Source: Datnioides undecimradiatus (taxonomy: Eukaryota; Chordata; Actinopteri; Lobotiformes; Datnioididae). From it: DNA of 64,000 nucleotides. Shown one piece after another: positions 44,186 through 64,000 of the stretch (position 1 is the stretch's first letter; every line of letters starts with the position of its first letter). The translations under genes were made by a program, and so were the position numbers. The stretch lies in NCBI GenBank assembly GCA_008933995.1, contig WARS01000016.1:8015848-8079847 (forward strand). Direction: 5' to 3'. Under the pieces are notes generated by a model. The model was not told the origin of the DNA. It made no database searches and saw nothing but the letters and a program-made list of their open reading frames with translations.

Positions 44186-46765
44186 ATGCCCGGCAAGAAG
44201 GACCCCAAGAAGGACACAAAGAAAGGTGGAAAACCTGAACCAGAGAAAAAGAAAGAGGAAGAAAAGAAAGGAAAGGATGACAAAAAGGGAGGAAAAGATG
44301 ATAAGAAACCCAGCAAAGATGATAAGAAAAGTGGAAAGGATGATAAGAAGGGAGGGAAGGATGATAAGAAGGGGGGGAAGAAGGGAAAGGAGGAGCCACC
44401 CAAGGGGAAAGATGATGGAAAGAAGGGAAAAGACAAAGGAAAAGGTAAGAAAGTGGAGTCTGAGGAGGAAGAGGAGGAGCTCCTGAGTGATGAAGAAGAG
44501 GATGAAGAGTTAAGTGAAGAGGAGGATGATGATGAAGAAGAAGACTCAGAGGATGACAGGAGAGGGAAAGGGCAAGGAGGCAAGGGAGCTAAAGGAAAGA
44601 AGGGGGGGAAGTCTAGACGCGGGGAACACTCAGAAGAAGATGAAGACGAGGATGAAGATGAAGAAGAGGAGGATGATGACTACGAAGAGGATTATGGAAA
44701 ATCCAAAAAGAAATCTAAAGATGATCGCCATCATAAAGGAGGGAAATCTGATGCAGATGCAAAAAAGAAGAAAGGCAAAAAGAAAGAGGAAGTTCCTCAG
44801 CTTCCAGTAAAAGAAATCCCAAAGAAAGGTCTGAAGAACATGTCCAGGATGTTCATGAAGTTTTCTGGTTTCAAGAGGCGCAGGAACAGCAGGAAGAAGC
44901 TGAAAAGTACATCACGGTTATTCCTGGGACTGGGGAAAAGAAAGACTCGCCTTGCTAAGAAGAAACGCCGCAAGTCCATGCTGAAGAACACCTCTCGATT
45001 CATGATGAGGTTTAAGGCCAGTAAGAAGAGGAAAAAGGAGAAAGAGGCCAAAGAGAAGGCAGAGTCAAATGGCGGGAAGAAACCAACCTATATGCTGCTT
45101 CGTCTGGGAGGAGGTAAAGAATCAAATGAAAAGAAGGGGGGCTTTTTCAAAGGCTTATTTGGAAAAAGAAATGGTGATGGACCTGCTGATGATTTCAAGA
45201 ACAGAAGTATGTTGCTGGGTAAGGTTGCAGCAGCAACTAACTGGCTTACCAAACGCTTCCTATCTACTAAAATGCGAGGAAATGCAGGACACCATGGCTG
45301 GGGCAGACATAGAGCTCATAGCCGACAAGCCAGCTCCAGAGGTTATCTTCGTAGTTACCATAACAATGGTTATGAGCATGAGGAGGACGCATATGGATAC
45401 AACCAACAACATTCAATTCGACAGAAAGGTTATGGAGACTATGATGATGGTTATGGTGGTTATGGAGATGAAGCAACTGCAGCATATGTAGGCCAGAGTC
45501 AGTTTGGTTACTATGATAATGGAGAGGGTGGAACAGACTATCAAGACCTGGGTTACTATGAAGAAGAAGGACTCTATGATCCAAATGCAGAATATTATGA
45601 AGGTGGTCTTTATGATGATGGCATGGGGGATTACTATGACCCTTATTCCTCTGCGCAAGGCTACCACAACAACCAGGAAACTGATTACTTGGCTTACCAG
45701 CAACAACAAGCAATGGCAATGTACAGTGATGATGGTCTGGATTACTATGGACTCATGGGTGAGGACCATATGTATGGAAGAGAGGTAGATGGCTTCCTAG
45801 ACCCTCAGACTCAGGGTTATTACGATGAAAATACTCGAGGAGTTTACTACGGTGATGGACAAGGAGGTTACTATGATAACAGACAGACAGGTTATTATGA
45901 GAACCCTTATGCAGCAACTATGGGAATGCAAGGGGGGTTTTCACCAGACTATCAGCTTAGTTATAGTGATGCTGGCATGCCCTACCAAGATTACAGCTCC
46001 CAGCAGGCCATTGGAGTTCCACCAGGAGGCCAGCAGGTCTTTGGCTTTGGAGGACAAGGGATGGATCAAGTACAGGGCCTGTATGGGAACCAGTATGCAG
46101 ACCAGTTGGATCAATATGGGGATGATACTGGGGGAGTTCAGGTAGGGGAAATGACCTTTAGAGTTCCCAGACCTCAGGTGCGCTTATTTGGGAAGGAGCG
46201 TCTAGATGTTCCCCTTCCCCCTCCACCTACTTTGCCACCTGATCCAGAATTTGAAGATATGTCAGAAATCCAGTACGAAGACCAGATCCCTCTGGCCCCA
46301 GGTCAACTTGGTGATATGATGTCACTACAGCAGCAAATGGGAATGTCACCACAACAACAAATAATGACACCATCTCAAGATCAAATGATGATGCCACCGC
46401 AGATTATGTCACCACAGCAACAAATGATGTTAGAGCACCAGATGATGTTACAACCAGAACAGAATATGTCTGCCCATATGATGCCATCACAGATTGTGTC
46501 ACCACAGCAACAAATGATGCTACCACAGCAACAGATAATGCCCCAGCAAATGATGTCACCACAGCCGCAGATGATGCCCCAGCAAATCATGTCACCACAG
46601 CCGCAGTTGATGCCCCAGCAAATCATGTCACCACAGCCGCAGATGATGCCCCAGCAAATGTTGTCACCACAGCAGCAGATGATGTCACAACAAATGATAT
46701 CACCACAAGAGCAGATGATGTTACCACAGCAACATATGGTGTCTCCACAAATGATTTCACCACAG
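44186..46765 (+). CDS. myo15a: myo15a coding exon 1 (residues 1-860)
   Basis: The regions in order are: a Lys-rich head with 7-residue KDDKKGG-type repeats and Glu/Asp runs (1-210); three basic SR motifs MSRMF, TSRLF and TSRFM (216-280); NWLTKRFL (352-359); a Gly/Tyr/Asp/Glu-rich segment (about 395-650); [20 protein letters not shown] (658-677), close to the human counterpart; and a Met/Gln/Pro repeat (about 710-860). The donor is CACAG|GTACTT. A 404-bp intron without features follows. Confidence 0.92.
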
Positions 46766-49700
46766 GTACTTATAGCTCTGTTGTGTTATTGATTTTATAT
46801 AACCATCCTTCCAGAGGGTAACAAAAAGGCGACGTTGGTGCCTTTTAACCAGTTCATATTGTATGGTGAAGTAAATATTTCCAAATTTGCATTCCAGCGT
46901 GCACACCTCCAGTGCCTGACAAAAAAGAATTAGGTAGATTGTTAAAAATCTTCACAATGACAACAGTAAAATGTGTTCTCAACTATGCAATCCAAAAGAA
47001 CATTTATTTGTAAAGCACATGTGCCAATTTACAAAACTTATTTTCCACAAATTGTATTATTGTACTCTCAAATTATTTTCAGCTACCCTGTTTTTATCTA
47101 ACACATTGCTCTGTTAGGTTTTTTTCTTTTTTAATTTATTCACTGCATATTTTTGTTTTATTCTTGCAGCAGCAAATAATGGCAGACCCAGTGCTGATGT
47201 CACAGCAACAGGTTTATGGACAAGTGTCAATTCCTACTCCAACTGCCATGATTATTAAACAAGCAAGTATGTCCCCTCTTCCAGTCCGGCGCATGCAGCC
47301 CTCTCCAACCCCATCCCGCCGCTCTGTCATCATGTCCTCCCCACAGATGCAACGTCATCCATCTGCCATGCCTTCCCCAGTACCTTCTCCTATGCTTCCA
47401 CAGAGACAAAGCCCATTCCCACAACCATCAATGAGGAGTGGGTTCATTAATCCTCAAAGATCACCCTCTGTTATGTCAAGACGAATCTCACCTTCTTCCT
47501 CCCCCATGGCCTCCCCCCTTGCCCGTCGTAGAATGCAACCCCCAAGATCACCATCTCCCCTGGCTCGAGGACCCTCACCTCCTCATTCTCCCCGTGCCTC
47601 CATGATCCGGAGAAGCCCACCACCCTCACCAAGAGTGTCAGTGAGACAATATTCTCCACCTTCATCACCCCGTGGTTCCATGAGGAGGCGTAGTCCATCA
47701 CCATCTGCCATTCGAGCCCGAAGCCCATTTGGCGAAAGAAATATACGTGGGCCGCCTTCCCCTCCTCTCTCCCCTGGTCATGCATCCCCCCCCCTCTCTC
47801 CACAGCTCAGTAGAAGACTATCTCCCTCTCCCTCCCCATCTCGTCGCAGTTTATCCCCTGTAGGTCCCCAGCCTACCCCATCATCTCCTACCCTCTCTCG
47901 CCGCTCAACTCGGCTTCTAAGGGATCCCACACCATTGGCCCGACCTCGGATGGGGGGAAATGTTCCCTTAGGTACTGTCAGACCTTCGCCTATGGGTCTC
48001 AGAGGGCGTCCAGTGCCCCCACCCACCCAGAATGTGCGTCCATTCCGTGCCTCCTCCATACGAAGCAATCGGTCCTCTGTTCTTACAGTGGATTCCCTCC
48101 ACTCCTCCCCTTTCCACTCCCCTCACATGGTCCATCGTGCTCCTCTGGGAAGGAGAGAATCTGGCCGATTTCCTCCTCGCCCTGTGGCTCGAGGACGTCC
48201 CCTAATGGCACAGCAGTCTATAAGACGGATGCCTCCTGCTTCCCCACAGCCCTCCCTTAAATACATGTCACATCCTGCATCCCCACGCTTTTCACCTCGA
48301 CTGTCTCGTCAGTCCTCCCCACTCCTGCCCCATCGAGTGTCCCAGTCACCCACTTATGCACCAGAAACCTATGTATCTGTCCCCTATGCTGATCCTTATA
48401 TTGAGCAGTCACATCAGTTTGGTGCCCCATCTTCTCCTATGTTATCTGGTGCTTTGCAGAACCAGGCAATTCGACAGGCCTCTTTCACGTCCCACCTTGG
48501 ACCAGAGCAAGCCCAGGTGGTAGGCATGGGTGAAATGGCTACTGACTATGTAGAACCTTATGCTCCCTCATCCCCTTCACTTTCTGGTGCAATGCGAAAC
48601 CAGGCCATTCGGGATGCATCCTATGTTTCCTCATTGCAGAGACCAATGTCACCTTACGAGCAACATGTGGCCCCTTCATCTCCCATGCTATCTGGGGCTC
48701 TGCAGAATCAAGCCATACGAGATGCGTCTTACCATTCTCCGTTACAAAGGCCAGTGTCCCCTTATGAAACACCAATAACTCCTTCATCCCCAGTGCTGTC
48801 TGGAGCTCTTCAAAACCAGGCAGTGAGAGAAGCTTCATATGCATCCCCTTTTCAAAGGCCTCAGTCCCCATATGCCAGATCTGTACCTTCTTCTCCAATG
48901 CTCTCTGGAGCCATGAGACATGGCCAGGCACTAAGAGGTATAGCTTCCTATCAGACTCCACAGCTCCATTCACCATACGGACCAACTGTTGTTACTCCAT
49001 ATGATTATATCTCCGAGCCCGGCCCGGCACCACTCCTTCATGATGCTCTACAGAATCGGTCTGGTTTGCAGAATGTCTCATCTTTAAGATCTCCTATGAT
49101 GCAACGTCATAACCCTTATGCACCAGCTGGACCTCAGCTCCACAGTGCTCTTCAACAGAACCCAAACCTCCGCCAAGCATCTTATCAAACACCAATGCAA
49201 CTCAGACGGTCCCCCTATGGACCCCAACCTCCCTCTTCACCAATGTTAGGAAGTGCCCTACAAAACCAACAGCTGATGCAGGCATCGTATCGGCTGCCAG
49301 ATGGAACTTTAGTTTCACCATATGCAGATTCCCGTTCCTCCCCGTTGCTTGGCCATGCCTTGCAAAACCAACAAGTTCGTGAAGCTTCATACACCTTGCC
49401 TGATGGATCAGTTATCAGGGTTGGTAAAAAAAAATTAAAATTTCAACTATACAACCAGACATGTATATTTGTCTATGTATGTATCAAAAACAATTGTTTT
49501 AATTGTTTTAATACATTATTACAGTTATATTCTCCCATGTCACTTACCACCCTCTCAGGATCCACGTGTGCCCCAGAAGCCCATGTCTCCAAACCTTTCC
49601 AGAGCTCTTCAGAACCAGAATGTCAAGACTGCTTCATATACTCTCCCTGATGGTACCATCGTAGACCCTAGACAGCAAGTAACCCATGACTCATGATCCT

Positions 49701-52231
49701 TTACTTGAATTCAATTTACCTCTCATTGCTGTAATGGATTCCTTTTTTCTCTATCTCTACCAATATGCAATGTATTAGTTAAGGTTAATGAATATTTTTC
49801 TTGGTCTGCTGTTTCTGCTCAATTTAGCAACCCATGTCCCCAAACCTGGCCAAGGCCCTAAATAACCCAGCTCTGCGTGAAGCTTCATATTCTCTCCCTG
49901 ATGGTACAATTGTGATTGACCCCAAGAAAGAGAAGTCTCCAAACCTTGCAGCAGCACTTCGGAACCCTTACCTGAAAAGTGCATCATACACATTGCCTGA
50001 TGGTACTATCATCATTGATCCACGGAAACCTGTATCTCCAAATCTCTCCAGTGCCCTTCAAAACTCTGCTCTGTTGAATACTTCCTTCACACTACCAGAA
50101 GGGATTCATGACCCTAATACACCCATTTCACCAAATCTGGCTAAGGTGAGCTACTGATTCAGAGGTTTTTCTTTTTTAAAAAAAATTGTATTCACCTGTA
50201 ACTTTGTGTGTTCTGTCACAGAGCAGAACAGAGGACAGATAAAAGGATTTGAAATAATTTCTACAAATTGATGTCTGATGTCTTTTGTTTTGCTAATAAT
50301 AACTTATTGTTGTTATCTAGTAATAACGTACTAGAAATCAAAATACTATGCTGCTTTTGTGCTACTTAGGCCCTCAGTAACCCAGCCTTGAAAGGAGCTT
50401 CATACACCCTTCCAGATGGAACAATTATAGTGGACCCAAGGAAACCAAAGACCCCAAACCTTGCTGCTGCCCTGCAGAATCCCTATCTAAAGGGTGTGTC
50501 CTACACCTTGCCTGATGGAACTATTATCATTGACCCACGGAAACCAGTTACCCCTGACCTGTCTAAAGTATGTAAATTTATCTTAAATTAACTTTGCTTC
50601 AGTACCTGTTTATTTTATTTTTTGCACTTACACATGCACTGTTTGGAAATCAAACAATTTTACCTATAATTACATTCATTTGCACAAATTAGCAAACTGT
50701 GATTATAGCCATGAATAACTGCTTGGTTTCTTGCTCTGCAGGCGCTTACAAATACAAACCTACGTAATGCATCATACCAGCTCCCTGATGGTTCCCTGAT
50801 TATTCCTGGTCAGAAGCCCTCCACCCCCAACCTTGCAGCCGCTCTGAGGCAAAACCAGGCAATGCGGACCACAGGTCTCTATCATCTTCCACAGAACTCA
50901 GTACTGTCTGGTGCACCAAAACCCACCCCACCCAACCTAGCCTCCGCACTGCAGAAAGAGGAACTCCATGGTGTCCGTTACAGGTAGGGAACTACACTAT
51001 AAATGGAAACTAGGACAAAGAATGACCTAATAGGCTTGTCCAGGTGTTGCACAGAATTACCTGTTTTGAAATCAAGCTGCGAGACTGGCATTAACTTTTT
51101 AACAATGGAGAATTACACATTAACCCTAATTGACTAAAAAGCTCTAGGAACTATGGAGCTAGAGAAAATAAATTCTTTTGCATTCCTTTTGGCTGTCTCA
51201 CTGCACCTGACAAACCGTGAAGATTTGGGCAGATAACCAATGATGGACTGAAAATCAAGGGCAATGTTTGAAACACAATTTTCCCAACCAAAATACAACA
51301 ACATAAAGATGCCCTGTTATTCTTTACTGTTGTAGCCATGCAGAGGCGGAAACAAAGACTTAAAACTTTAGATCATTAATCTGCTAAATGCTTAATGGCT
51401 ATTCATCTTTGCTGTACAACATAACCACAGAATTGAATAAAAGCATTTTCATATTGTCAAATGTTGTGAAACTATTTGTTACATGCCCTTAATTGAATGG
51501 AGTCATTCCTTGCCCCACAGGCTGCCGGATAGCTCTCTTCTCACACGTCGGTTTCATAATCCAAGCCTGACTGATGCCATCCATAACCAGCAGCTTCGCT
51601 ATGCCTCATACAGAGTGCCAACAGGCCTGCAGGGTGAGGATAATCGCTACGCTGTGGTTCCTCCCTATGGGCCACGGTCAGGACACTGGGCCAGGAATGT
51701 CCAAGGAGGAGGGGAAGGGGGGGATGATGTTTGGGCAGCTGAGAGGGTTTTACCACACGGGACAGTCCAGAATCTGTCAAAGTGGTCCATGTACAGAGAA
51801 GACGGGGTTTTAGAAAGATATTCACCAGCACCTTGTGTTGTGGACGGACAGCCACAGGACACAGAATGGACTCCTGACAGAGACAGAGTACCTGGTCAAA
51901 GCTGGTATGACAAGGTAGTTTAATTTATGAATTCATGAGTTTGTTCAGATATGTTTGTAAGGTGCCACATTTACCCTTTAGCATGATTAGGTAATTCACT
52001 TTTAAGTTTTTGATGATTTTTGAACAGTTGATGGATATTAAGTAAACTATTCAAGCAAAAACTGTGGAGCATAAAACATAGGAGCTGGATGGAGTTTTTA
52101 AACAAGAATGTTTTAATTTCTGCATATTTTATATCAGCTCTACATCAAGTAATGACAATATCCCTCAAGCTCTGACAAGATTGCGTGACATTGTTAGACT
52201 AATTACATATCATTGTGTGCATGTGTGGTGT

Positions 52232-52288
<57 letters not shown>

Positions 52289-55200
52289 CCCAGATCTATT
52301 CTATCCTAAGCATGCCCACAACAGGCCACAGGCTGAAACGCTGGGCAGAGGGAATGGAGGACATGACACAGCTGCCGTAAGCAGAATCCAGTATTAACAA
52401 ACAGCCTCAAAGCTCATTCACTCACGCCACACATTTAACAGTTTGTTGCTCCAGTGTAGACTGGCGCCGCTCATTTCAATGCATATCCTTTCAGTTTCTC
52501 TAAGCATCAATTAAGGGTGTGTGTGTGTATGTGCTTCCCAGTGTGCCTGCCTGTAGGCTTTAAAAGTCCTACAGAGAAAGAAAATCCTAGCGTTAAGTAT
52601 GTTAAGTATATAATGTCTTATTAAAATTTAATGCCTAAGTAGATCTCTGTCAAATGATCAGATCATTCTCTGACAAGCTCCAAAGAAAAATTCTCTGATC
52701 TTTGATTTTGACATCACAGAATTTCACTAGTTTTAAAAGAGAAAGATCTTGAATGTCATTGCGAGGTAATTAATATTGGATGTCAAAGTGACTGTGGCAA
52801 TCCTGCTGCAGTGTGACGTGTGTGTAATTTCCTCCATGTTTAATTTCAGTGAGCTGAATGAGACCACAGTTCTAATGAACCTGAAGAAGCGTTATGACCA
52901 GGAGCTCATATATGTATGCTATATTTTTAATATGCAAATTTGACAGCTAATATTATCAAATGTCATGGACGCTGCCAATATATTTACTCATTCACTCCCC
53001 TTCTTGTTCTTTCTCTGGCTGCTTCTCTTCCATACAGACCTACATAGGCAGCATCCTTGTGTCTGTGAATCCCTACAAGTTGCTCAACATCTATGGCACA
53101 GACATGGTGCTTCAGTATGGGGGCCATGGCCTGAGTGACAATCCTCCGTAAGACCTGAGTGTGTGTGTTTCCATGTGTGCTGAGCTGTGTACCATGAAGT
53201 CAGAATAATGGGTTAGTGAGATTCGTTGAGCCCATAGTCAGGGTTTTTGTTGTCATATAGCCAGCTAGCTTGTTAGATCGCTATGGTAACTGATCCTAAT
53301 CACCTAACCTAATCCATAGCTTTTCCTAATGATATTCTCTATGGCCAATACAGATTCACAGCTGTTGTTATGTATGCAAAACTGTTGAACTGTATATATT
53401 GATGAACAAAGCCATGATATTACCAAAGCACAAACTGTTGAGTTGGGTTGCCACAGGAATCTACATTTGTTCAGATGGTGATGCAGAAAATGCAGACTCA
53501 GAATCAGATGTTCTCACGCTTGGTCCTGATTTGCTGCCAAGTCTGTTGGAAATAAAACACAGTTACACTGTTAGAAATAAAACACAGGTGGGAGAATTGA
53601 TTAGTCTTTGGTGTAGGAATCACAGAAAATATTAGATCAATAAAAATAATTTTCCTTTGGCCAAAAGCCATTTTGATGGATCCTTCATAAAGGGGCAGTG
53701 TCAGACTTCATCCATTATGTTTAAATCGCTAAAGTCTCAGAGCTCTAATGTGCAGCTGTCACAATAGAAATAAACATCAGGCACTAAGAGCATTGAGTGG
53801 TAAAATAAGTATATTAAGAAATTACGCAACTAACAATTTGGTGCTGACAGTCTATTTGCAGCTGTCATCTTTATTTTTTTAGATTCTTTCAACTCCCCAT
53901 AATACCAACCAGTCACTCTTGAGTGAAATAAACACAGTCCAGTCGCTCTAATTTGTGTAGAAAAAGAGTCAAACTCTACACTTCAAACATACCGTTTTAT
54001 GAGAACAAGAAAGAAGAAAACCTTTTACAAATAAAGTTGATAATGGCCGTTGTGATAACCAGTAACTCTTCCTTAATACCTCAAGGTGTTGCAGAAAACC
54101 TGGTTAAGTACAGCTTTTGGTGCTCAAGAAGAGGGTTATGTTTTCAGGCTATTTCCATCACCTGCGGATGTGTTCTTGAGCAAAGAAATTAAAAATCTGC
54201 ACATTCCTACAAATTCTGATTGGAAGCAAAGCCACTGGCCAAAGATTAAGTGATTCATTATTTATTCAGGGAGAGTAACATTGCAAAATAACCTTAATAC
54301 TTTCTGTATAGATATGTATTTTAAAACATAACCATGTCTAAATTTCAAAAAGTAAAAAATATTTTTGTCTTATTCAAATAACAAATTCAGATAACTGTGC
54401 TTTCTGGATTGATGTGTAAGCTTTCTGGTGTTGAACAGAGGACCAAAAAACTATCTAACCTCTAACTGTAACCTTTGAGTAAGTGTAGTCCTGGGTGTTA
54501 CTGCACTCTTTTAATATAACTGTCTACAAGTTTTGTAAGCTGTGCTCTGAGATACAGTTTGGTGGTAAATAGAGGTATAAATGCCAGCACTCTCAGGTGT
54601 TGGTAAGAGGCTCCTATTACACTGCTGTTGGTTGGTTGCCAAGGGAGAGTTTGGTTATGGATTTCACTACAACTTTACAACCACATACACACGCGCACAC
54701 ACACTCACACATACACGCACAACCACTGGGCATAAAAGTGTACTTTTTAAATAAAAAATGTTTTGCTGTGTTGCAGTCATCTTTTTGCCATTGCTAATAT
54801 CTCGTATACCACCATGATGGATGCCAAAAAGGACCAGTGTATTGTGATCAGGTAAATGCTGTCATTGCTGCTGGCATTTTTCACTTTCAGTAAGGCCTTG
54901 AATTTGCTGTTCATCGTGCACTTCAACAAACCCTGAGAGCAAATCTGAAGGTTTTAATTTTTTTCATTTAGAAAAAGATGTGGCATAAAAATCCTAAAGT
55001 TAACTATTGACTGGTTTGTTATTGCAGTGGAGAGAGTGGGTCAGGAAAGACTGAAGCTACTAAACTGATCCTGCGTTACCTGACAGCCATACATCACAAA
55101 TGCAACGTCACCCAACAGGTAGATAAACTGCACATCATGTGCACACATGCAAACAAATACGGTCCATACTGTGGTTTCTAATGCTAACTCTATGAACACT

Positions 55201-58200
55201 TTCCTTTCTTCTCCTCTCTCTTCTTGTCTACCATGTCCTATCAGATAGAGGTAAGGTGTTCCTTTCCTTGTTTTTTGCTCATATGTCACCATCCCTGTTA
55301 AAGGTAGCTATGGTAACGTATCTGTCTGTGGTGTGATTGGTCAGATCCTAGAGGCCACACCCCTGTTGGAGTCCTTTGGGAATGCCAAAACAGTGCGCAA
55401 TGACAACTCCTCACGCTTTGGCAAATACACGCAGATCTTCATGGAGGAGTGAGTAGTAACAACTTAGATCACTATAGCTAATAACTCAGTAAACAGTAGC
55501 AACAGGTCTCAGAGAATCCAGTCCAGAAAAATCTTTAACAAAGTTTTAAAGAATAAGTATTAAATCAAATCGACTTGTAAGAAAGTCTGACTGACCTTGA
55601 TCTCTGACCTGCCAAAGGAAACATATAAATATACATATAAATATACACTGTCACAAAAGAACAACGCAAGAGTGCAGCAGGCATCAGGCAGCAGCAAAAC
55701 CCTGACATTGTGTTTTCATGTATACAAGAAATGTGTAAGAATGCAGAAGCAATCTTAAACTAGCCTTAATCTCATGATACCAGGGACCAATTGATTGTTG
55801 CTATAGTTATGCATTACCATAGCTACCGTCATGGATCCACAAGTTTAGATTGGCAGTGTTTGTCTGGGATTAACACCAGCTCTTGTAATGATAACAAACA
55901 GCCTGTATACTATGTTAACTTTGCAAAGACTTCTGGTCACCCATGTGGATGGCTGCAGATGCGCACACACTCACATACACACACCTCACACATACATATG
56001 CATAGTGGGATAAGTGGCGAATATGCTTAACATGTCCCAGTAACATAGTTAGATGACCAGCTGATCCTTCGCGAGAACTGTGACAGAGAGGAGCCCAGGA
56101 CATTACACATGCATGACCTGTTACTTAACTCGGACTTTGTGTGTGTATGTGTGTACCTGTGTGTCATTTACAAGGGGTGTAATCAGCGGTGCCATAACGT
56201 CTCAGTACCTGCTGGAGAAGTCCCGCATTGTCTTTCAGGTGAAAAACAAGCTCACACACACAGACACACCAGGTCAGGTTGGACTCTTCTTACCACTGAG
56301 TCATGGTGAGAAAGAAGAGACTGTAGAGGCAGACAACATGACAGGTGTCAAACGTGTTGTACTCTCTCTTGACACAGCCAAGTCTCTTAATCAGTCATTC
56401 ATCCATCCATCCATTTGTTTATCCAACACATCGCCTTTCTACACAACTATTTGATTTTCCCACCACCATAGGTCTAAAATGTATAATAATGTATATGAAT
56501 ATGTGATATGTTTATGTGTGTCATGTGGCTCTGTATGTGTCTATGTGTGTGCATCTTTTTGCCCACAGGCCAAAACAGAGAGGAACTATCACATCTTCTA
56601 CGAGATGTTGGCAGGTCTTCCTCCTGACGAGAAGCGCTCACTCTACCTGCAGGAAGCTGAGACTTACTATTATCTGAATCAGGTGCTCAGAGAAACACGA
56701 AATACGCTCCCCCTCCACACCACACACACACACACACACACGGAGCACAGATAAGGAGTGGTCACTGTAATCAGTTTCACAGTCACATTAATAAATGAGA
56801 TGTCAATTTCTTGAAAATGTGATATTTATTCTACTTAGTGATTAATGGCACAGGCATAAAACTCATTGTGGTGCCTAAATATGGAGTAAGGGACCTTTGC
56901 TGCCTGGAGTCTTTATATCTGAGAGATTTAGTGTGATAAATGTAATTTTCTGTCACCAAATTTGATTGATAACTTGTTACTCTGGGTATCTTCTAGTAAG
57001 GCTTTCGTGCTCTTCAGTAGTGGTTGCAAACAATTTTTGTGCATGAACCAATACAACATCTAGTTGTGACTCTTCATCATTTATTGCATATGTCAGATTG
57101 CTCAGCAGTGTTTAATATATTAGTTTCTTTGTACCACTTCACAAGATATGAGCAACATGCAATGTGTGCTGAATGTCACCTGTGCGTCCTCCAGAGTGTC
57201 AAAGCAGCAACTCATCAGTTTGATATGGCAAGATGCGGCTATTGCCAATTCTAGCAGGTAGGGTGGGTGTGGAGTGACAATTGTGTAGGTGCAGCAAAAA
57301 ACAAACGGTGTTTTCAATGTGCTGTGCCATGATGGAGAACCATATCGCCACTGGGTCATTTGTTCCAAATTTCCTCTCTCAGAAGCCTCAAAACAGTGCA
57401 GCAGTGGTCTGTGGAGACGAATTAGTGGTGCCTTGAGAAAGCTACCAGCATCACCACCAGTGACGATCTGTCACATGAAGCATAGGTTTGACAAAGATTT
57501 TAATGTTTCCTGTCTGCTCAAGTTTGAGGTCCATGGTAACAATATAAAAATGCACTAGGGCGAAATCATAGACACATGCCTGCAAGTGGTCACATAATCG
57601 CTTTTAACTCCAGTTGTCCAGTCACTGGTGGTTGTGTAATGTAACCAAGTGTTCAAACTCACAACAGCAGGAACACGGGAAACTGTCTAAAAACATTTTG
57701 ATAGCTCATCATATGTCTGCATCACTGAATCAAGGTGAGAGGTTGAACCCCCAGAGGGGCAAAAACAAGACTTTCAGCGGCTGATAAGTTGCCCCTTAAT
57801 TAGAGTTGAGATTAAACAGACTGAGGGTAAGTATGTCCTTGTTGATAACAGTGTCTGTGTGTGTGATGTGTGTGTTCATGAGTGCAGGGAGGGGATTGTA
57901 ACATAGAGGGGAAGGATGATGGGGAGGACTTCAGGCGTCTACTGAGTGCCATGGACATCCTTTGTTTTACTTCGGAGGAGCAAAACGGCATCTACAGACT
58001 GTTGTCATCTGTCCTTCATCTGGGGAACGTTTACTTCCAGCCACACCAGGTCTCTCTGTCACACACACACACACGCACACACACAAAGGCACACACAAAA
58101 ATAGACTACAAAGATCCATTTAGTTTCACGGCTGAATGATAATGATGATGTTGATAGATGACGGTAATAATGAATGTCTTTGCCTCTGTATGCGTGGGCG

Positions 58201-61200
58201 TGTGTCCCTGCAGGCCGAGGGTCAGGAGGTTGCCTCGGTGGTGAGCACCCAGGAGATCAGAGTGGTATCTGAGCTGCTGCAAGTCTCACCTGACGGCCTG
58301 CAGAAGTCTGTCACCTTCAAAATGACAGTGAGCAGAGCACACTTAGCATAATCACATTCTTAAACACACACTAACGATATTGTTTGCTCCCATTAGGGGT
58401 CGCTGCTGTTGATTATCTACTTTCTATCTCACCACTAAACTGGGGCCCCAATGTTTTACAACTCCCTAACTGGTCTGACATGAAAATTAAATTAGCATGT
58501 GGTATATTTTCACAATTCCTAGACTTCTGACTGGCATTAGGAATACACTGGTTTGTGCATTGGCTGGGGAACACTGTAGGGTTCAGTGTGTTACCCAAGG
58601 ATGATTGACCTTGTGGACGAAGGTGATGGATATTGAAACCGCCAACTCTGTGATCAGTAGACAACTTTCCTCCTGGGGCACAGCTGCCCAATGCATATCA
58701 TAGATGATAGAAGGAGTTAAATTATATTAGTAACTGCTTAAAAATGTGCCTGACCAGAAGAGGTTGATTATTTGCCCTCAAGCATGGCTGTTTTTACAGA
58801 CTACCTGTCTATTTACTTGTTTACTCTTCTGTTTAACTTACAAGTTGGATTATCACAACATTTACATTAAAAATCAAATTACAGGGAGAGAGTTTCTCTG
58901 TCTGGGTTTCTGCTCATCTAAACGTCTTAGCACTAAACATTCAACCTCCACACTCATCAAGCCTGGGCAGACAAACAGACAGATGCAGATTCCTCTGAAG
59001 CCCCATTCTGACTGCTGTACAGGGTGTTGATTATATGTTTGTTTAAAGTTTTTTAATATTGAACATGCCGCATGTCCAACCACCACACCACATATGACAC
59101 TGCATATCCCTGTGTCCCTAGCAGTGCACCTGCCAAGGTAAGGTAGACTGGATTAACAGCCATTGAGATACATGAAGGAGAAACACACAGACACAGACAG
59201 AGTTTTGTTGCCTTATGAGTTAAATCATTTATCCTAATAATGTTAGATGTTGTTAGAAAACAGATGTGTTTGCCCCCTCAGGATACGGGGAGGGAGAAGA
59301 TCTTCACTCCACTCACAGTGGAGAGCGCTGTGGATGCCAGGTAAGTGAGGAAGAGTGTGACTGTAGTAGCTGTTAAATTTAGCATTACACACCTACTTTT
59401 GCTTGGAATAACCTGAAATAAAAGCCTATCTGACAGTTTTCTTTGAGACTTTTTAATGTCCTCATTTTATACTCCCTCTATTTAAAATCATGCCAGGAGA
59501 CTACTGAGAGTGAACAGTCTTTGATTTTCTCTTCCAATCTTTGGTAGAGGCATGTGAGGACAAAAGATGTCACGGCTGGGGGAGAGATTTTTCAGATGTC
59601 CTCTGTTTCCATAGGAACCGGGTTTTCTGTTACCATAGAAACCTTATTGTGTGTTTTTCATAGAGATGCCATTGCCAAGATCCTGTACTCGCTGCTGTTT
59701 AGTTGGCTGACAGAGCGCATCAACGGACGGGTCTACCCTCGCAACGAAGCCCTTTCTATCTCCATATTGGACATATATGGATTTGAGGTCAAGTTAAGAA
59801 TGATCTCGCATAAAAATGTTGCTGATGCATCTGAGCTGTCCTATGTTTAATCACTCCTTTGTTCCCCTATGCACCTCTCCTACCATACAGGAGCTACAGG
59901 TGAACAGTTTTGAACAGCTGTGCATCAACTACGCCAATGAAACTTTGCAGTTCTTCTTTAACAGGGTCATCTTCCAGGAGGAGCAGGTCAGGAAAACTTC
60001 AAGTTAATATTTTCATGTTTGAATTTTCGCAACGAGGATGGATTAATGTGTCAAAGGTTGTTGAGACATTGAGGTTAACACAGTGTATGCAAATATCTAA
60101 GAATTTGCGGTAAAAACCTGATTTCCCAGAAAGATTGCTCATGTGCGATACTACAGCTGAAAAGAAAACTGGAAATGACTGACAGCAAAGTTAAAGAGTT
60201 TCATGTGGAGAAACCTGATGAACTTCTGTGCTGGGTGTGTAGGAGGAGTACATGCGGGAGCAGATCCAGTGGCAGCAGCAGCCCTTCAGCAACAACCAAG
60301 CTTGTCTTGACCTCATTGCCGCTAAGCCTCATGGGATACTGCGCATACTGGACGACCAGTGTGGTTTCCCTCAGGTGCATCCACACCTGTGCAACCAAAA
60401 CTCTTTATTCCCAAAGTTATGACAAATCACTTACATGTAACACTGAACTGAAATTAAGAATGATTGATACAAACAGTGGTTAATTAAAGCAAAGGGTGCT
60501 AATAATTCATTACTTCATCAAAAACCTGCTCTGCACAGAGATCCCGTCTACTGAGAGACTTCTGTGGTACGCATGAGCCCTTAAAATGAAGTTAGATTAG
60601 GTTACAAGAAATGTTTGAAGTCTTACATTATTTAGGTGTATTGAGAAAATAAAAGCAACAGCCGACAATAACTCATGATTCAAACATTTCATATCTCAGC
60701 TCTGAAAAAAGAACCCATCTCATTTATTGGATTTCTCATAAACCGGGACATTGAAGTGTATTGCAGCCAGCTCCGATCAATACAGAACTATCCCACATGC
60801 TCATTTAACTGCCTACCTGCTGTTATCATTGTTCTCGGGGCTCCACATGTAGGAAGCGGAGTGAACTCATATTGAGATGGACGTGTTATGAAGTGTCCCT
60901 GATGCTCAAAGTGAAATATGAACACTGTGTTACACGAGCAACTGACTGAGGCACTCTGTACAACACATGCAGGCAACATGTGTTTGTGCTGTAGAGATTT
61001 TGTTTCCATGGCTCACCACCATTCTCTGATCATCGCTAGGCAACAGACCACACCTTCCTTCAGAAGTGCCACTATCACCATGGAAACAACCCGCTATATG
61101 CCAGGCCTAAGATGCCACAGCCTGAGTTCACCCTGAAACACTATGCTGGGAAGGTCACATACCAGGTGCATTTATTTGTTTGTTTTTTCTTTCTTTCTTT

Positions 61201-64000
61201 TTGTTTGAAGAGCTTGTGTAAAATATGCATTCTAATCTACTCTTTTAACGTCCATTAACTTTAGTTTTTCCATGACAAACACTTCCCTTACTATACCCAT
61301 CTGTACTGCAGTCAGCACTATGTTATTAAAGGTGCAACATGTTGTTGTCCTATTTCTCTTAAGGTTTGACATATATCCTCCCAAAGTATATTATTCTTTT
61401 CGCATGGCCAGAGGATGAGTAAATGTTTAGCTTTCGTGTGCCTGCACAGTCTCCAGCACTGCTCATTAACAGTAATTTGCTTTCATTAATATGGTGCTCT
61501 TAGAATCTCATCTCCCAAAACCAATCCTCCTCCTTTATTTCTACATTTCAATTTTGATTGATTCTTGCTGGATAGACCTTGTTTTAGTTCCTTTACACGA
61601 CGTCCCACTGAAATAAATCATTGTTGTTAAGATCAAATTCCCTCTTCAATTCATTAATTCTCTTTATCCTCTGATATTATATACGCTTTTATATTAATCA
61701 ACCTTGCATTCAAGTGCAAAGAGCTGTTATACTATTGATTTTTCCAATGATTTGTGATGCAGGTGCACAAATTCTTGGATAAGAACTTCGACATGGTCCG
61801 TCAGGATGTTTTAGACCTCTTCATCCAAAGCAAGAACAGAGTGAGATGTGCAATTATTGTTCTTTCCTGTGACTTTCTCCCTTGCTGATCCAACATTTAC
61901 AGTATTGCTCGTTCTCTATTCCCCAAGTAAGCGTACACAGTGATCTTCAATTACATCTAAATATCATGATTGTCACTCATCATCTTTATTGCAGTGGTGT
62001 GGCACATGACAATCATGTGTTTTGACTTTTGCTTTTAACTTTGCAAGTGGGAAATATACAAGTACCCATTATGTAATTATTGTTTTAAGGCAAGAACAAA
62101 TATTAAGTGACAGTAAGTTGAACTAGTGACAAATAATGTTGTAATGAAAATCAATGATGAATTCTCTACACATACCAGCTACAAATATTATCCACCTATT
62201 ATATGACAAGATACTCAGGACTGACTGTTCCAACTTTGGCTTACCTTTTTGTCTTCTGTGCGGTGCTGTGTGTGTGTATACAGATGGTATCCAGCCTCTT
62301 CTTAAAGTACTCAGAGTCTGTGTCACAGCAGCGGTCTAATGTGCAGCGCAGCAGCATGGCTCGTCGTTATCAGGCAAACACAGTCAGCGCAAAATTCCAG
62401 AGTAGCCTGCAGGAGCTGCTGGAGAAGATGGAAAGGTTTGAGTAAAACAATGCTTGTTTAACCTTTAAAACAACAGTGAAACCTCTGACACACCTTTATA
62501 ACACCAGTGGAAAACGGCCTAGTTGTGTTGTATATGTCACTGGATTGAATGAATTGTTACATCCATATTATTTGAATGTCCAAATAGAGAAGGTTGACGC
62601 AAAATAATGATGAGTCACACAGTAATTCACTGTGTGGGTGTGCAAAACTGACTGTGAGATCCTGGAATATATAGACTGTCTGTATGATGTGGGGACTGAG
62701 TGAAAGAGGAAGTGACACATACTGTTTTATGGCCTTGTGCCGAGATAGACAGCTCAGAGCTGTTTGTTTTATATTGGTTAGTACTGATCAGAGATCTGTT
62801 CTAACACCTTTTATGTCCCCAGCGTCAGTGTTTGTAGGAGCCATTTATTGCGGGGAGATGAATTTTATTTGCTTAATTTGAGCTCAGTCATATCTCTTCT
62901 AGATGAAAGCTAAGGCCTCTGGAGAAATCTCAGTCAGTAAAATGCCCTGCGCTATAGATTTTTACTACAAAACGAGTTTTCTTTAGCTTCATTTTAACAG
63001 TTGACTGCCTTGTGTCTTGTATGAAGCCTTCATTAGATCATACATTCATTCATCCATCCATTCATTCTCATCTATCTGTGACAGGTGTAATCCTTATTTT
63101 GTGCGATGCATCAAGCCAAACCATCTTAAGGTATATTTCAAAGTTGGATGATGTGTGCAGGTTTGCAGTGTTTTTTTGTTTTTTGTTTTTTTCTAATGAA
63201 TACGTATTCCTAGCTTGCGTGTATTAAATGCGTATGCGTCTATGTCTTTTGCAGGAGCCAGGGGTGTTTGACGTGGAGCTGGTCAACACTCAGCTGCATT
63301 ACTCTGGTATTATGGAGACCATCCATATCAGGAAGGAGGGTTATCCAATCAGATTTCACTTTCATACCTTCCTATCGAGGTTGGTTACCTTCTATCAAAG
63401 ATTACATTAAGCATATCTGAGGAGAAATGAAGACTCTCATTGAACCATCTATGCTAAAATATAGTTCCGTTGCTCTGTAGCTCCTCCTCTCGCCATTCAC
63501 CACATTCAGCTCGTGAAAAATGGCTCAAATTGTTGGCTTTTTCTGGCAAGAGTACAGTTCACACATACACATTTCTTCATGCTGAAATGGCCATCTGGCA
63601 CATGCCAGCTCTTGCAGTAGGAAACCAATTGATCTCACAGCACCTCTGACTGCTGTCTGCCAAAATGGTCATTCACAGTTAATTAGATTCACACTAAAAC
63701 TACTAAATACAAGCAAATACTCAGCTACCAAAACTGAGAATACTCAGAATAAACTAACCTTACCCAATTAGCTTCACACCAGGTCTATCAGACTCACAGC
63801 CAAAATAAAAAGACTTCACACAGAGTTAAAATGCATGTTGCAGCTTTGGACTTTTGGACTGCTTTGCGCTCACATTTACTTAAGAATTCATGTTGGATTT
63901 TCATCCTCAATTTGTGTGTGTGGCATGCACTATACATGCACACAGGTATAAAGCCCTGCTCTGCCTGAAGGATCTTCCACCTGCAGACGGAGAAAACTGT
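44186..64000 (+). CDS. myo15a: Unconventional myosin XV (myosin-XVa), 5' 28 coding exons, partial
   Basis: Myosin XVa is an actin motor that carries whirlin and EPS8 to stereocilia tips and is required for hair-bundle growth. Twenty-eight exons join in one frame (8,082 bases, 2,694 residues), every junction being GT..AG and phase-consistent. Residues 1 to about 2053 form an N-terminal extension; mammals have about 1,200. The motor starts at GMEDMTQL (2054) and carries the P-loop GESGSGKT (2146-2153), switch I NDNSSRFG (2196-2203), switch II DIYGFE (2419-2424) and an acidic TEDS-site residue, E2368. It is cut by the window edge before the converter, so IQ motifs, MyTH4, SH3 and FERM domains lie outside. 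MYO15A rather than MYO15B is supported by the extension's shared SR-L/F motifs, NWLTKRFL and [12 protein letters not shown], all recalled from human MYO15A. The start ATG follows an in-frame leader without other good starts. Whether this is teleost copy a or b cannot be told. Confidence 0.95.
44270..44374 (+). repeat. myo15a: 21-bp tandem repeat coding KDDKK units
   Basis: Five consecutive 21-bp units (GGAAAGGATGATAAGAAGGG-like) encode 7-residue Lys/Asp-rich repeats in the head of the myosin XV extension. Copy number is likely to vary by slippage. Confidence 0.85.
46532..46747 (+). repeat. myo15a: 36-bp tandem repeat coding a Met/Gln/Pro 12-mer
   Basis: Six 36-bp units encode variants of [12 protein letters not shown]. 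The central four are nearly identical at DNA level and the outer ones are more diverged, indicating recent unequal expansion. The array ends shortly before the exon 1 donor. Confidence 0.9.
47170..49419 (+). CDS. myo15a: myo15a coding exon 2 (residues 861-1610)
   Basis: The acceptor is TTCTTGCAG at 47161-47169. Residues about 880-1250 are Ser/Pro/Arg-rich (SPSP, RRSPSP and similar). From about 1279 the exon holds the first nine LPDG-type repeats, in an early variant with SPY spacers. The donor AGG|GTTGGT is weak and competes with GTAAAA four bases downstream, whose use would shift the frame. Phase 0 is required by exon 3. Confidence 0.9.
49559..49678 (+). CDS. myo15a: myo15a coding exon 3 (residues 1611-1650)
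   Basis: It has 40 codons and is phase 0 on both sides. It encodes one LPDG repeat, from [13 protein letters not shown] to TIVDPRQQ. The acceptor is CTCTCAG and the donor is CAA|GTAACC. The flanking introns are 139 and 149 bp. Confidence 0.85.
49828..50145 (+). CDS. myo15a: myo15a coding exon 4 (residues 1651-1756)
   Basis: It has 106 codons and is phase 0 on both sides. It encodes three full repeats plus the first residues of the next, ending SPNLAK. The acceptor is AATTTAG and the donor is AAG|GTGAGC. Confidence 0.88.
50370..50567 (+). CDS. myo15a: myo15a coding exon 5 (residues 1757-1822)
   Basis: It has 66 codons and is phase 0 on both sides. It begins [17 protein letters not shown] and ends TPDLSK, so its boundaries fall at the same point of the repeat unit as those of the neighbouring exons. 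The acceptor is CTTAG and the donor is AAA|GTATGT. Confidence 0.88.
50742..50983 (+). CDS. myo15a: myo15a coding exon 6 (residues 1823-1903)
   Basis: It contains two and a half diverged repeats ([17 protein letters not shown], then AALRQNQAM, then [14 protein letters not shown]). It ends inside an Arg codon (AG|G). The donor is CAG|GTAGGG. A 537-bp intron follows with nothing recognisable in it. Confidence 0.88.
51521..51914 (+). CDS. myo15a: myo15a coding exon 7 (residues 1903-2034)
   Basis: It begins [10 protein letters not shown] and includes the last repeat-like unit ([18 protein letters not shown]), followed by a unique Gly/Trp-containing segment leading to the motor. The acceptor is CCCCACAG and the donor is AAG|GTAGTT. 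The 379-bp intron downstream is dominated at its 3' end by a TG tract. Confidence 0.88.
52237..52284 (+). repeat. myo15a: (TG)24 tract abutting the exon 8 acceptor
   Basis: Twenty-four uninterrupted TG units end nine bases before exon 8, leaving CGTGCCCAG as the only spacer. There is no conventional pyrimidine tract between the repeat and the AG. Confidence 0.97.
52294..52376 (+). CDS. myo15a: myo15a coding exon 8 (residues 2035-2062), start of motor
   Basis: It encodes [20 protein letters not shown] and then MEDMTQLP, which aligns with human GVEDMTQLEDL at the motor boundary. It has 83 bp, phase 0 in and phase 2 out, so skipping it would shift the frame. The donor is CC|GTAAGC. A 473-bp intron follows. 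Confidence 0.9.
52850..52913 (+). CDS. myo15a: myo15a coding exon 9 (residues 2062-2083)
   Basis: It encodes [21 protein letters not shown], the myosin head N-terminal segment. The acceptor is ATTTCAG and the donor is TAT|GTATGC. Confidence 0.92.
53038..53147 (+). CDS. myo15a: myo15a coding exon 10 (residues 2084-2120)
   Basis: It encodes [14 protein letters not shown] and the following loop to DNPP, a hallmark myosin head strand. The donor is CC|GTAAGA. The 1,629-bp intron that follows is AT-rich and holds no exon I can recognise. Confidence 0.95.
54777..54851 (+). CDS. myo15a: myo15a coding exon 11 (residues 2120-2145)
   Basis: It encodes [20 protein letters not shown] and CIVIS, leading directly into the P-loop. 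The acceptor is GTTGCAG and the donor is AG|GTAAAT. Confidence 0.95.
55028..55118 (+). CDS. myo15a: myo15a coding exon 12 (residues 2145-2175), P-loop
   Basis: It encodes [19 protein letters not shown], the ATP phosphate-binding loop, and ends at NVTQQ. The acceptor is TTGCAG and the donor is CAG|GTAGAT. Confidence 0.97.
55245..55250 (+). CDS. myo15a: myo15a coding exon 13: 6-base microexon (residues 2176-2177, Ile-Glu)
   Basis: CCTATCAG|ATAGAG|GTAAGG is an acceptor, two codons and a strong donor. The two residues fill exactly the gap between exon 12 (..TQQ) and exon 14 (ILEATPLL..). Human myosin XVa reads [12 protein letters not shown] at this place. The introns on either side are 126 and 94 bp. 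Confidence 0.85.
55345..55448 (+). CDS. myo15a: myo15a coding exon 14 (residues 2178-2212), switch I
   Basis: It encodes [20 protein letters not shown] and [15 protein letters not shown]. Switch I NDNSSRFG contacts the nucleotide. The donor is GA|GTGAGT. A 726-bp intron without recognisable content follows. Confidence 0.96.
56175..56238 (+). CDS. myo15a: myo15a coding exon 15 (residues 2212-2233)
   Basis: It encodes [20 protein letters not shown] and Q. The acceptor TTACAAG is followed by G, which completes a Glu codon. The donor is CAG|GTGAAA, and a 330-bp intron follows. Confidence 0.94.
56569..56682 (+). CDS. myo15a: myo15a coding exon 16 (residues 2234-2271)
   Basis: It encodes [20 protein letters not shown] through ETYYYLNQ, the conserved myosin ERNYHIFY block. 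The donor is CAG|GTGCTC. The 1,205-bp intron that follows has no recognisable content. Confidence 0.95.
57888..58049 (+). CDS. myo15a: myo15a coding exon 17 (residues 2272-2325)
   Basis: It encodes [19 protein letters not shown] through [15 protein letters not shown], the upper 50-kDa region. The acceptor is GTGCAG and the donor is CAG|GTCTCT. Confidence 0.94.
58214..58327 (+). CDS. myo15a: myo15a coding exon 18 (residues 2326-2363)
   Basis: It encodes [18 protein letters not shown] through [10 protein letters not shown], collinear with human [13 protein letters not shown]. The donor is ACA|GTGAGC. The 954-bp intron that follows contains a tRNA-derived SINE remnant. Confidence 0.94.
58578..58695 (-). 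mobile_element. Degenerate tRNA-derived SINE remnant in myo15a intron 18
   Basis: On the minus strand the order is GCTGTGCCCCAGGAGG (decayed tRNA box A region, normally GGCTCAGGAGGTAGAG), a box-B-like GGCGGTTTCAATATCC (normally GGTTCGATCCC), then CCTTGGGTAACACACTGAACCC. This is the standard layout of a widespread teleost tRNA-like SINE. It is mutated and lacks a clear tail. Confidence 0.65.
59282..59340 (+). CDS. myo15a: myo15a coding exon 19 (residues 2364-2383)
   Basis: It encodes [21 protein letters not shown]2368 (of REK) lies 16 residues before the DAIAK motif, the TEDS position in the cardiomyopathy loop, where an acid makes the motor independent of head phosphorylation in other myosins. 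The donor is AG|GTAAGT. Confidence 0.94.
59664..59787 (+). CDS. myo15a: myo15a coding exon 20 (residues 2383-2424), switch II
   Basis: It encodes [20 protein letters not shown] through [14 protein letters not shown] is switch II. The acceptor is TTCATAG and the donor is GAG|GTCAAG. Confidence 0.96.
59891..59986 (+). CDS. myo15a: myo15a coding exon 21 (residues 2425-2456), relay helix
   Basis: It encodes [20 protein letters not shown] and [12 protein letters not shown], the relay helix. The donor is CAG|GTCAGG. Confidence 0.95.
60243..60374 (+). CDS. myo15a: myo15a coding exon 22 (residues 2457-2500)
   Basis: It encodes [19 protein letters not shown] through [12 protein letters not shown]. 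The acceptor GTGTAG lacks a strong pyrimidine tract. The donor is CAG|GTGCAT. The 665-bp intron that follows is empty as far as I can see. Confidence 0.94.
61040..61165 (+). CDS. myo15a: myo15a coding exon 23 (residues 2501-2542)
   Basis: It encodes [20 protein letters not shown] and then [19 protein letters not shown] to VTYQ, the typical HYAGKVTY strand. The donor is CAG|GTGCAT. The 597-bp intron that follows has no features. Confidence 0.95.
61763..61840 (+). CDS. myo15a: myo15a coding exon 24 (residues 2543-2568)
   Basis: It encodes [20 protein letters not shown] and IQSKNR. The acceptor is GATGCAG and the donor is AGA|GTGAGA. A 443-bp intron follows. Confidence 0.94.
62284..62435 (+). 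CDS. myo15a: myo15a coding exon 25 (residues 2569-2619), loop 2 region
   Basis: It encodes [20 protein letters not shown] through [19 protein letters not shown]; the variable Arg/Ser part corresponds to actin-binding loop 2. The donor AG|GTTTGA is weak. A 649-bp intron follows. Confidence 0.92.
63085..63130 (+). CDS. myo15a: myo15a coding exon 26 (residues 2619-2634)
   Basis: It encodes [15 protein letters not shown], the strongly conserved myosin FVRCIKPN motif. The acceptor is TGACAG and the donor is AAG|GTATAT. Confidence 0.95.
63255..63379 (+). CDS. myo15a: myo15a coding exon 27 (residues 2635-2676)
   Basis: It encodes [20 protein letters not shown] through [18 protein letters not shown]. 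The donor AG|GTTGGT is the same weak hexamer used after exon 2. A 566-bp intron follows. Confidence 0.94.
63946..64000 (+). CDS. myo15a: myo15a coding exon 28, cut by the window edge (residues 2676-2694)
   Basis: It encodes [18 protein letters not shown], collinear with human YCCLVALKHDLPANGDMC. The acceptor is GCACACAG at 63938-63945. The exon is still open at position 64000. Confidence 0.92.

Follow-up and report, generated by a model that had tools for sequence, protein, structure and literature searches.

The 64,000-nucleotide stretch of the Datnioides undecimradiatus genome analysed here (the window) carries a class XV myosin gene on its plus strand, and within the N-terminal extension of the encoded myosin we found a tandem array of 19 related units built around a short conserved core. 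A second class XV gene of the same fish, on contig C489, is collinear with the first and carries an array of its own, which is a new finding of this analysis. We read the array, with moderate confidence, as a series of short linear motifs in the Myo15a extension that would provide multivalent docking beside the motor. Such a conserved, countable unit gives an otherwise featureless extension of myosin-15 a defined, testable element. In mice, hearing requires the long isoform of myosin 15, which maintains the shorter transducing rows (PMC4592939), and the isoform with the extension goes preferentially to shorter-row tips (PMC11704364). The 133-kDa mammalian extension is described as lacking predicted domains (PMC9299544).

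An array of 19 units in the extension of a class XV myosin

The class of the host gene, proposed in a first-pass annotation of the window, was confirmed by querying solved structures with several motor exons joined: myosin-XV matched at an expectation value (E) of 3.4e-65, and the next class, myosin-VIIa, at 1.3e-44. A core pattern search of the spliced model placed the units at residues 1282-1946, corresponding to window positions 48433-51650. The annotation had claimed 19 copies of an undescribed repeat at residues about 1279-1940 (48424-51630), so that its count proved exact and its position correct within about 20 bases. Sixteen of the 18 intervals between units measured 31-36 residues (31-33 across units 11-16), and the other two 45-46. 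Units 1-7 lack LPDG, and six of these seven carry SPY or NPY, unit 1 carrying neither; the nine units from 8 to 16 carry LP[DE]G, unit 8 being a hybrid with both LPDG and SPY, and units 17, 18 and 19 hold decayed forms (LPQN, LPDS and VPTG, respectively). This typing agrees with the two sub-families described at first pass, i.e., early SPY units without LPDG and later units with it. A 13-residue string offered as typical of the later units fared less well, occurring exactly in units 12 and 15, nearly so in unit 14, and not in the others. Similarly, what is invariant in the proposed ALQN signature is the P, L and A of P-x-L-x-x-A, not the whole ALQN.

Profiles built from one half of the array recovered most of the other half. 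The profile of units 1-9 recovered 8 of the 10 remaining units with scores of at least 16.9 bits, missing units 17 and 18 (1.5 and 0.3 bits); that of units 10-19 recovered 7 of the remaining 9 with at least 14.4 bits, missing unit 5 (3.1) and unit 6 (-3.6). Among 201 decoys, made up of the reversed extension and 200 shuffled versions of it, the best single stretch scored 7.0 and 4.3 bits with the two profiles, respectively. Recovery so far above the shuffles rules out a chance or low-complexity artefact.

A second class XV gene carries a collinear array

Searching the 581-Mb D. undecimradiatus genome with units 10-16 uncovered the second array, on the minus strand of contig C489 (6673762-6675216). 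Only the window gene and this locus fell below E 1, also when eight units of the paralogue served as queries, the next best match lying at E 2.4 (all first-look candidates of these searches were scored, 14/14 and 17/17). The second array sits inside a single frame that stays open for 1970 codons between two stops (6679392-6673483) and directly precedes class XV motor exons; a splice donor after the array and an acceptor before the same motor lead-in could be read by eye. The two genes are collinear along their length, and over 1907 aligned motor and tail codons (matches below 50% identity left out) they are 68.7% identical, with a proportion of synonymous differences (pS) of 0.665.

The C489 array comprises 14 units. 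Thirteen of them reach at least 15.2 bits with the window profile, and one reaches 5.9; a strongly decayed stretch near residue 1450 (-2.9 bits) may be a fifteenth. Its units are spaced 36-60 residues apart, with one gap of 100. By loose labels, the window gene has seven non-LPDG units followed by twelve LPDG-like ones, and the C489 gene one untyped and three SPLQ-type units followed by ten LPDG-like ones. As the non-LPDG units precede the LPDG units in either gene, the sub-families and their order are probably older than the separation of the genes.

We infer that the two genes, being collinear and old, are the myo15aa/myo15ab pair of the teleost duplication; myo15ab appears among the teleost-genome-duplication genes in a rockfish myosin survey (PMC8228858). 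In the flanks compared (upstream of the window gene ~44 kb, downstream 28 kb) no shared neighbours were seen, with no protein match outside the gene at 1e-4, a null result that lost or more distant neighbours would produce as well. The array itself probably predates the teleost genome duplication.

The unit core is old and held by selection

Across units the core L..A[LM].N..[LIV][RK].A.[YF]..P is kept, and the linkers, rich in Pro, Ser and Thr, are variable. Among the 33 units of both genes (19 from the window and 14 from the paralogue; position numbers exclude insertion columns), L4 is present in 33, A7 in 32, [LMI]8 in 33, N10 in 30, [LIVM]13 in 33, R/K14 in 27, A16 in 27, [YF]18 in 31 and P21 in 30. 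One-residue insertions inside the core occur. Identity between the two genes is 74% over the nine key columns and 25% over the remaining 17, figures to be read knowing that the key columns were selected for conservation and that unit pairs are not independent.

For the 171 pairs of window units, mean pS was 0.75 and the mean proportion of nonsynonymous differences (pN) 0.45, with pS exceeding pN in 170; at the conserved columns the values were 0.75 and 0.17. Paralogue units behaved alike (pS 0.74, pN 0.40; pS above pN in 89 of 91 pairs), and units 12 and 15 of the window differ at a pS of 0.67 and a pN of 0.06. With synonymous sites saturated and replacement sites lagging, the unit duplications must be old and their amino acids held by selection. 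A recent simple tandem expansion was rejected on the same saturation and because a DNA tandem-repeat finder reported no unit-length array at 48.4-51.6 kb.

These rates bear on whether the region is a spacer under little constraint, a spring or a condensate-forming chain, for which the exact motif would hardly matter. The variable Pro/Ser/Thr-rich linkers would suit such a chain, and PMC4592939 discusses the mammalian extension, predicted to be disordered, as a candidate entropic spring. A pure spacer, however, needs no conserved core, and here the core positions are kept in both genes despite saturated synonymous sites, leaving this explanation rather improbable. That the units build a folded solenoid or bead domain is more doubtful still: the even spacing of units 11-16 and a 198-base exon equal to two units would fit, but spacing varies between units and between genes, single residues are inserted within cores, and the array is 12.8% Pro. 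Since spacing is not kept, a structural repeat or a spring becomes less likely in general.

The unit spans ~24 residues, probably beginning with a two-turn capped helix (S/T-P-x-L-x-x-A-L-x-N) and continuing as a basic extended stretch (L-R/K-x-A-x-Y). S/T-P before a helix and Asn, often Asn-Pro, after it are usual caps, and L4, A7 and L8 would lie together on one side of the helix. LPDG is a usual tight hairpin turn, and later units probably add such a predicted hairpin, with free linkers joining one unit to the next. Phosphorylation of the Ser in [RK]xAS[YF] was considered as a common function and rejected, that Ser being replaced by Thr in 4 of the 33 units and by Lys in 3.

Likeness to known families and motifs

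No Pfam family exceeded its cut-off for the array, for single units or for the paralogue. The array as one sequence matched nothing in the PDB, and its profiles gave no PDB match below E 0.01 (best 0.011). The earlier statement that no known domain bears this signature thus stood up to a search of annotated families; nor did we find a description of the repeat in the open-access papers searched. Four Pfam families that had low E-values but remained under their cut-offs were taken as chance, namely DUF7196 (19.3 of 27 bits), DUF5704 (17.5 of 25), GxGYxYP_N_2nd (13.8 of 24.5) and T6SS_VasE (17.5 of 23.4). Three profile searches of the PDB listed 4 (E 0.015-1.3), 8 (E 1.1-2.2) and 22 sequences (E 0.011-2.5), and these matches were taken as unproven.

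The units could conceivably be tandem WH2-like modules, each holding one actin monomer with its helix in the barbed-end cleft and L-R/K-x-A replacing LKKV, which, as in Spire or Cordon-bleu, would make the extension a monomer store or a multi-monomer nucleator. Six key positions coincide when the two are aligned in their best ungapped register (L4, A7, N10, L13, R/K14 and A16 matching L, I, G, L, K and V of WH2), and the paralogue keeps them. In addition, the mammalian motor nucleates actin (PMC11754657, PMC9299544). Yet of the 33 units 30 have Asn at the Gly position and one has Gly, the first-Leu position is hydrophobic in only 14 of 33, and the I position is Ala in 32 of 33, the second L alone being kept in 33/33. 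The Pfam WH2 family (PF02205), at E up to 10, matched 0/19 window units, 0/2 longer window fragments and 0/4 paralogue queries (the whole array and three single units), while 7/7 known WH2 peptides matched as controls (HMMER filters drop weak matches). Profile similarity was no better than with permuted columns: 884 of 3000 permutations reached the score when 15 of the 19 window units were used, and with all 33 units in hhalign 52 of 150 did, the local alignment covering a single column. Weighing both sides, we consider WH2-like modules improbable.

Binding to the side of F-actin, in the manner of nebulin or calponin with one 33-40-residue unit per actin subunit, is suggested by the mostly 31-36-residue spacing in the window, near the roughly 35 residues of a nebulin repeat, and by the calponin spacing LQ....K.AS, which in register with calponin peptides is common to many window units. 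The calponin repeat (PF00402) gave no Pfam match in units, array or paralogue, against 2.7e-46 for a control of three calponin repeats; its similarity was not above permutations (1089 of 3000 reached the score, as did 61 of 150 in hhalign); and the calponin Gln is mostly not kept in the 14 paralogue units, being Leu in 6 and Gln in 3. Moreover, the spacing is inconstant, and the short F-actin-binding motif SFM, VxxLxxxFE (PMC13364712), occurs 0 times in both arrays and both extensions, also in a relaxed form. Side binding by such units hence seems distinctly unlikely to us.

A third likeness concerns the subdomain-4 loop of actin and Arp2 (SY-LPDG--I), with units 12, 14 and 15 resembling Arp2 SYTLPDGRII over 10 residues at E about 2. 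The Arp2 loop was the best single stretch, at 10.5 bits, among five alignments of eight listed, and actin or Arp2 made up 13 of the 22 listed PDB profile matches (E 0.22-1.7), but they are a single family in a list that spans about eight or nine protein kinds. The same LPDG hairpin recurs in unrelated proteins, some of them better scored (best E 0.011), and the likeness is not significant. It could nonetheless be imagined that the unit is a new multivalent actin-binding module, in which a WH2-like helix is coupled to an LPDG hairpin mimicking the actin loop, with the 19 units forming a tip-bound store of monomers that was later lost in mammals. Each unit would then imitate the pointed-end face of the incoming subunit and hold a monomer by its barbed-end face. 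We regard this as a long shot, and treat the WH2, calponin and actin-loop resemblances, none of them significant, as possible leads.

A proposed multivalent docking array beside the motor

Taken together, conserved cores, free linkers and many copies, in a motor that carries cargo to stereocilium tips, argue for a multivalent docking array. The linear-motif interpretation offered at first pass is likewise supported by the short conserved core and the free linkers. Each unit, pictured as a helix-plus-hairpin motif, would be one docking site, and many such sites near the motor would allow a single myosin of the long isoform to bind, through avidity, numerous copies of one ligand at the stereocilium tip.

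Several points weigh against the docking array. Helix, hairpin and disorder are all read from sequence, and the extension exons are a model built from open frames and splice signals. The key columns were picked for conservation and the unit pairs are not independent, as noted above, the WH2 and calponin similarities did not rise above permutations, and the actin-loop likeness fell short of significance. Finally, a 33-unit profile found no unit in a provisional, non-database sequence of the human MYO15A extension, reaching 1.1 bits at best, a score that 5 of 300 shuffles equalled or bettered.

As for the ligand, actin is our tentative first guess, since the motor binds and nucleates actin and both halves of the unit weakly resemble barbed-end-face binders; the rest of the weight is shared among other tip proteins, self-association and unknown partners. 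If actin, as monomers or filament sides, were the ligand, the long isoform would tune the actin nucleation shown for the mammalian motor, and the effect of the extension on nucleation is named an important future question in PMC11754657. Alternatively, the array may dock another tip protein, such as a member of the elongation or transduction complex, a possibility to which we give limited weight. Multivalent short motifs commonly recruit a folded partner, and the isoform that carries the extension is the one preferentially found at shorter-row tips in the mouse work cited above (PMC11704364). However, no ligand motif that we counted is repeated once per unit. PxxDY, the consensus of EPS8-SH3 ligands, occurs 0 times in both arrays, leaving the whirlin/EPS8 link suggested at first pass unsupported, and the 665 residues of the window array contain 0 PPxY and 4 class I and II SH3 ligands in all.

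Gene model and other features

The modelled extension comprises seven coding exons and 2034 residues (Table 1). The array of the window gene is spread over six exons, that of the C489 paralogue lying in one open frame. The exon at 50370..50567 measures 198 bases, or 66 codons, the length of two 33-residue units, and both its boundaries cut the unit at an equivalent position, between the K and the following A of L-[AS]-K-A-L. About 640 bases separate the end of the array from the exon with the conserved motor lead-in.

Table 1. Array units, modelled extension exons and motor region in the window
Feature	Positions	Strand	Basis
Unit 1, long tail, no SPY	48433..48570	+	core pattern/profile
Unit 2, SPY type	48571..48678	+	core pattern/profile
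Unit 3, SPY type	48679..48786	+	core pattern/profile
Unit 4, SPY type	48787..48891	+	core pattern/profile
Unit 5, SPY type, insertions	48892..49026	+	core pattern/profile
Unit 6, NPY, lowest score among early units	49027..49128	+	core pattern/profile
Unit 7, SPY type, one-residue insertion	49129..49236	+	core pattern/profile
Unit 8, hybrid LPDG + SPY	49237..49338	+	core pattern/profile
Unit 9, LPDG, split by intron 49420-49558	49339..49585	+	core pattern/profile
Unit 10, LPDG, split by intron 49679-49827	49586..49836	+	core pattern/profile
Unit 11, LPDG	49837..49935	+	core pattern/profile
Unit 12, LPDG	49936..50034	+	core pattern/profile
Unit 13, LPEG	50035..50127	+	core pattern/profile
Unit 14, LPDG, split by intron 50146-50369	50128..50450	+	core pattern/profile
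Unit 15, LPDG	50451..50549	+	core pattern/profile
Unit 16, LPDG, split by intron 50568-50741	50550..50822	+	core pattern/profile
Unit 17, LPQN instead of LPDG, insertions	50823..50927	+	core pattern/profile
Unit 18, LPDS, split by intron 50984-51520	50928..51557	+	core pattern/profile
Unit 19, VPTG	51558..51650	+	core pattern/profile
Extension coding exon 1 as modelled: Lys-rich, acidic, Tyr-rich and Gln/Met-rich segments	44186..46765	+	exon model
Extension exon 2: Pro/Ser/Arg-rich segment followed by units 1-8 and the larger part of 9	47170..49419	+	exon model
Extension exon: remainder of unit 9, larger part of 10; both ends phase 0	49559..49678	+	exon model
Extension exon: units 11-13 and start of 14; phase 0	49828..50145	+	exon model
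Extension exon: rest of unit 14, unit 15, start of 16; phase 0	50370..50567	+	exon model
Extension exon: rest of unit 16, unit 17, part of 18	50742..50983	+	exon model
Extension exon: end of unit 18, unit 19, 18-residue stretch of paralogue-conserved pre-motor segment	51521..51914	+	exon model
Start of class XV motor region, exons towards window end; outer limits approximate, introns not modelled	52293..63407	+	sequence matches

Between the array and the motor, a 23-residue segment (window 51729-51797) is nearly identical to its 23-residue paralogue counterpart and, by eye, more conserved than its surroundings; its LPHGTV resembles a changed unit hairpin. Separate from the 19 units, a 36-base tandem repeat of 5.8 copies with 89% matches (46511-46720) encodes residues rich in Gln, Met and Pro close to where the first extension exon ends, and by eye no counterpart was seen in the paralogue frame. 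The Lys-rich start of the extension contains an L-K-x-[TM]-S-[RK]-[LMF]-[FM]-like motif three times (window about 44840-45030), and similar pieces were seen by eye in the paralogue and in the provisional human sequence.

Other myosin loci were also met in the genome. Contig C220 (232301-234334) holds a myosin that looks like a conventional muscle heavy chain; a single open frame of 1935 codons, apparently intronless, contains the entire motor, and the gene may be a retrogene. Contigs C215 and C218 share one series of myosin matches, with positions and scores that nearly coincide, suggesting either two assembled haplotypes or duplication of a block.

Relation to known systems

The array is like the WH2 arrays of Spire and Cordon-bleu in that a short helix and a basic extended stretch recur in tandem within an actin-regulating protein; its units differ by Asn in place of Gly and by the extra conserved Leu8, Tyr18 and LPDG. 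Known WH2 proteins hold few copies, compared with the 19 found here. With nebulin and Xin it shares many short, actin-related units in tandem, the unit length being near that of nebulin; neither family turned up in the general Pfam scans, which included no direct comparison with them.

Compared with its human counterpart, the extension is long, about 2030 residues against about 1200 in human. The provisional human sequence aligns with it at the Lys-rich start (E 1.1e-5) and at a PRPQV-LFGK block (E 0.016), a Tyr-rich piece aligning only at E 0.18. As the provisional human extension is without the array, the array would not be needed for every vertebrate Myo15a. If mammals do lack it, as that sequence suggests, comparing the fish and mammalian extensions shows what this part of the myosin must do and what it need not.

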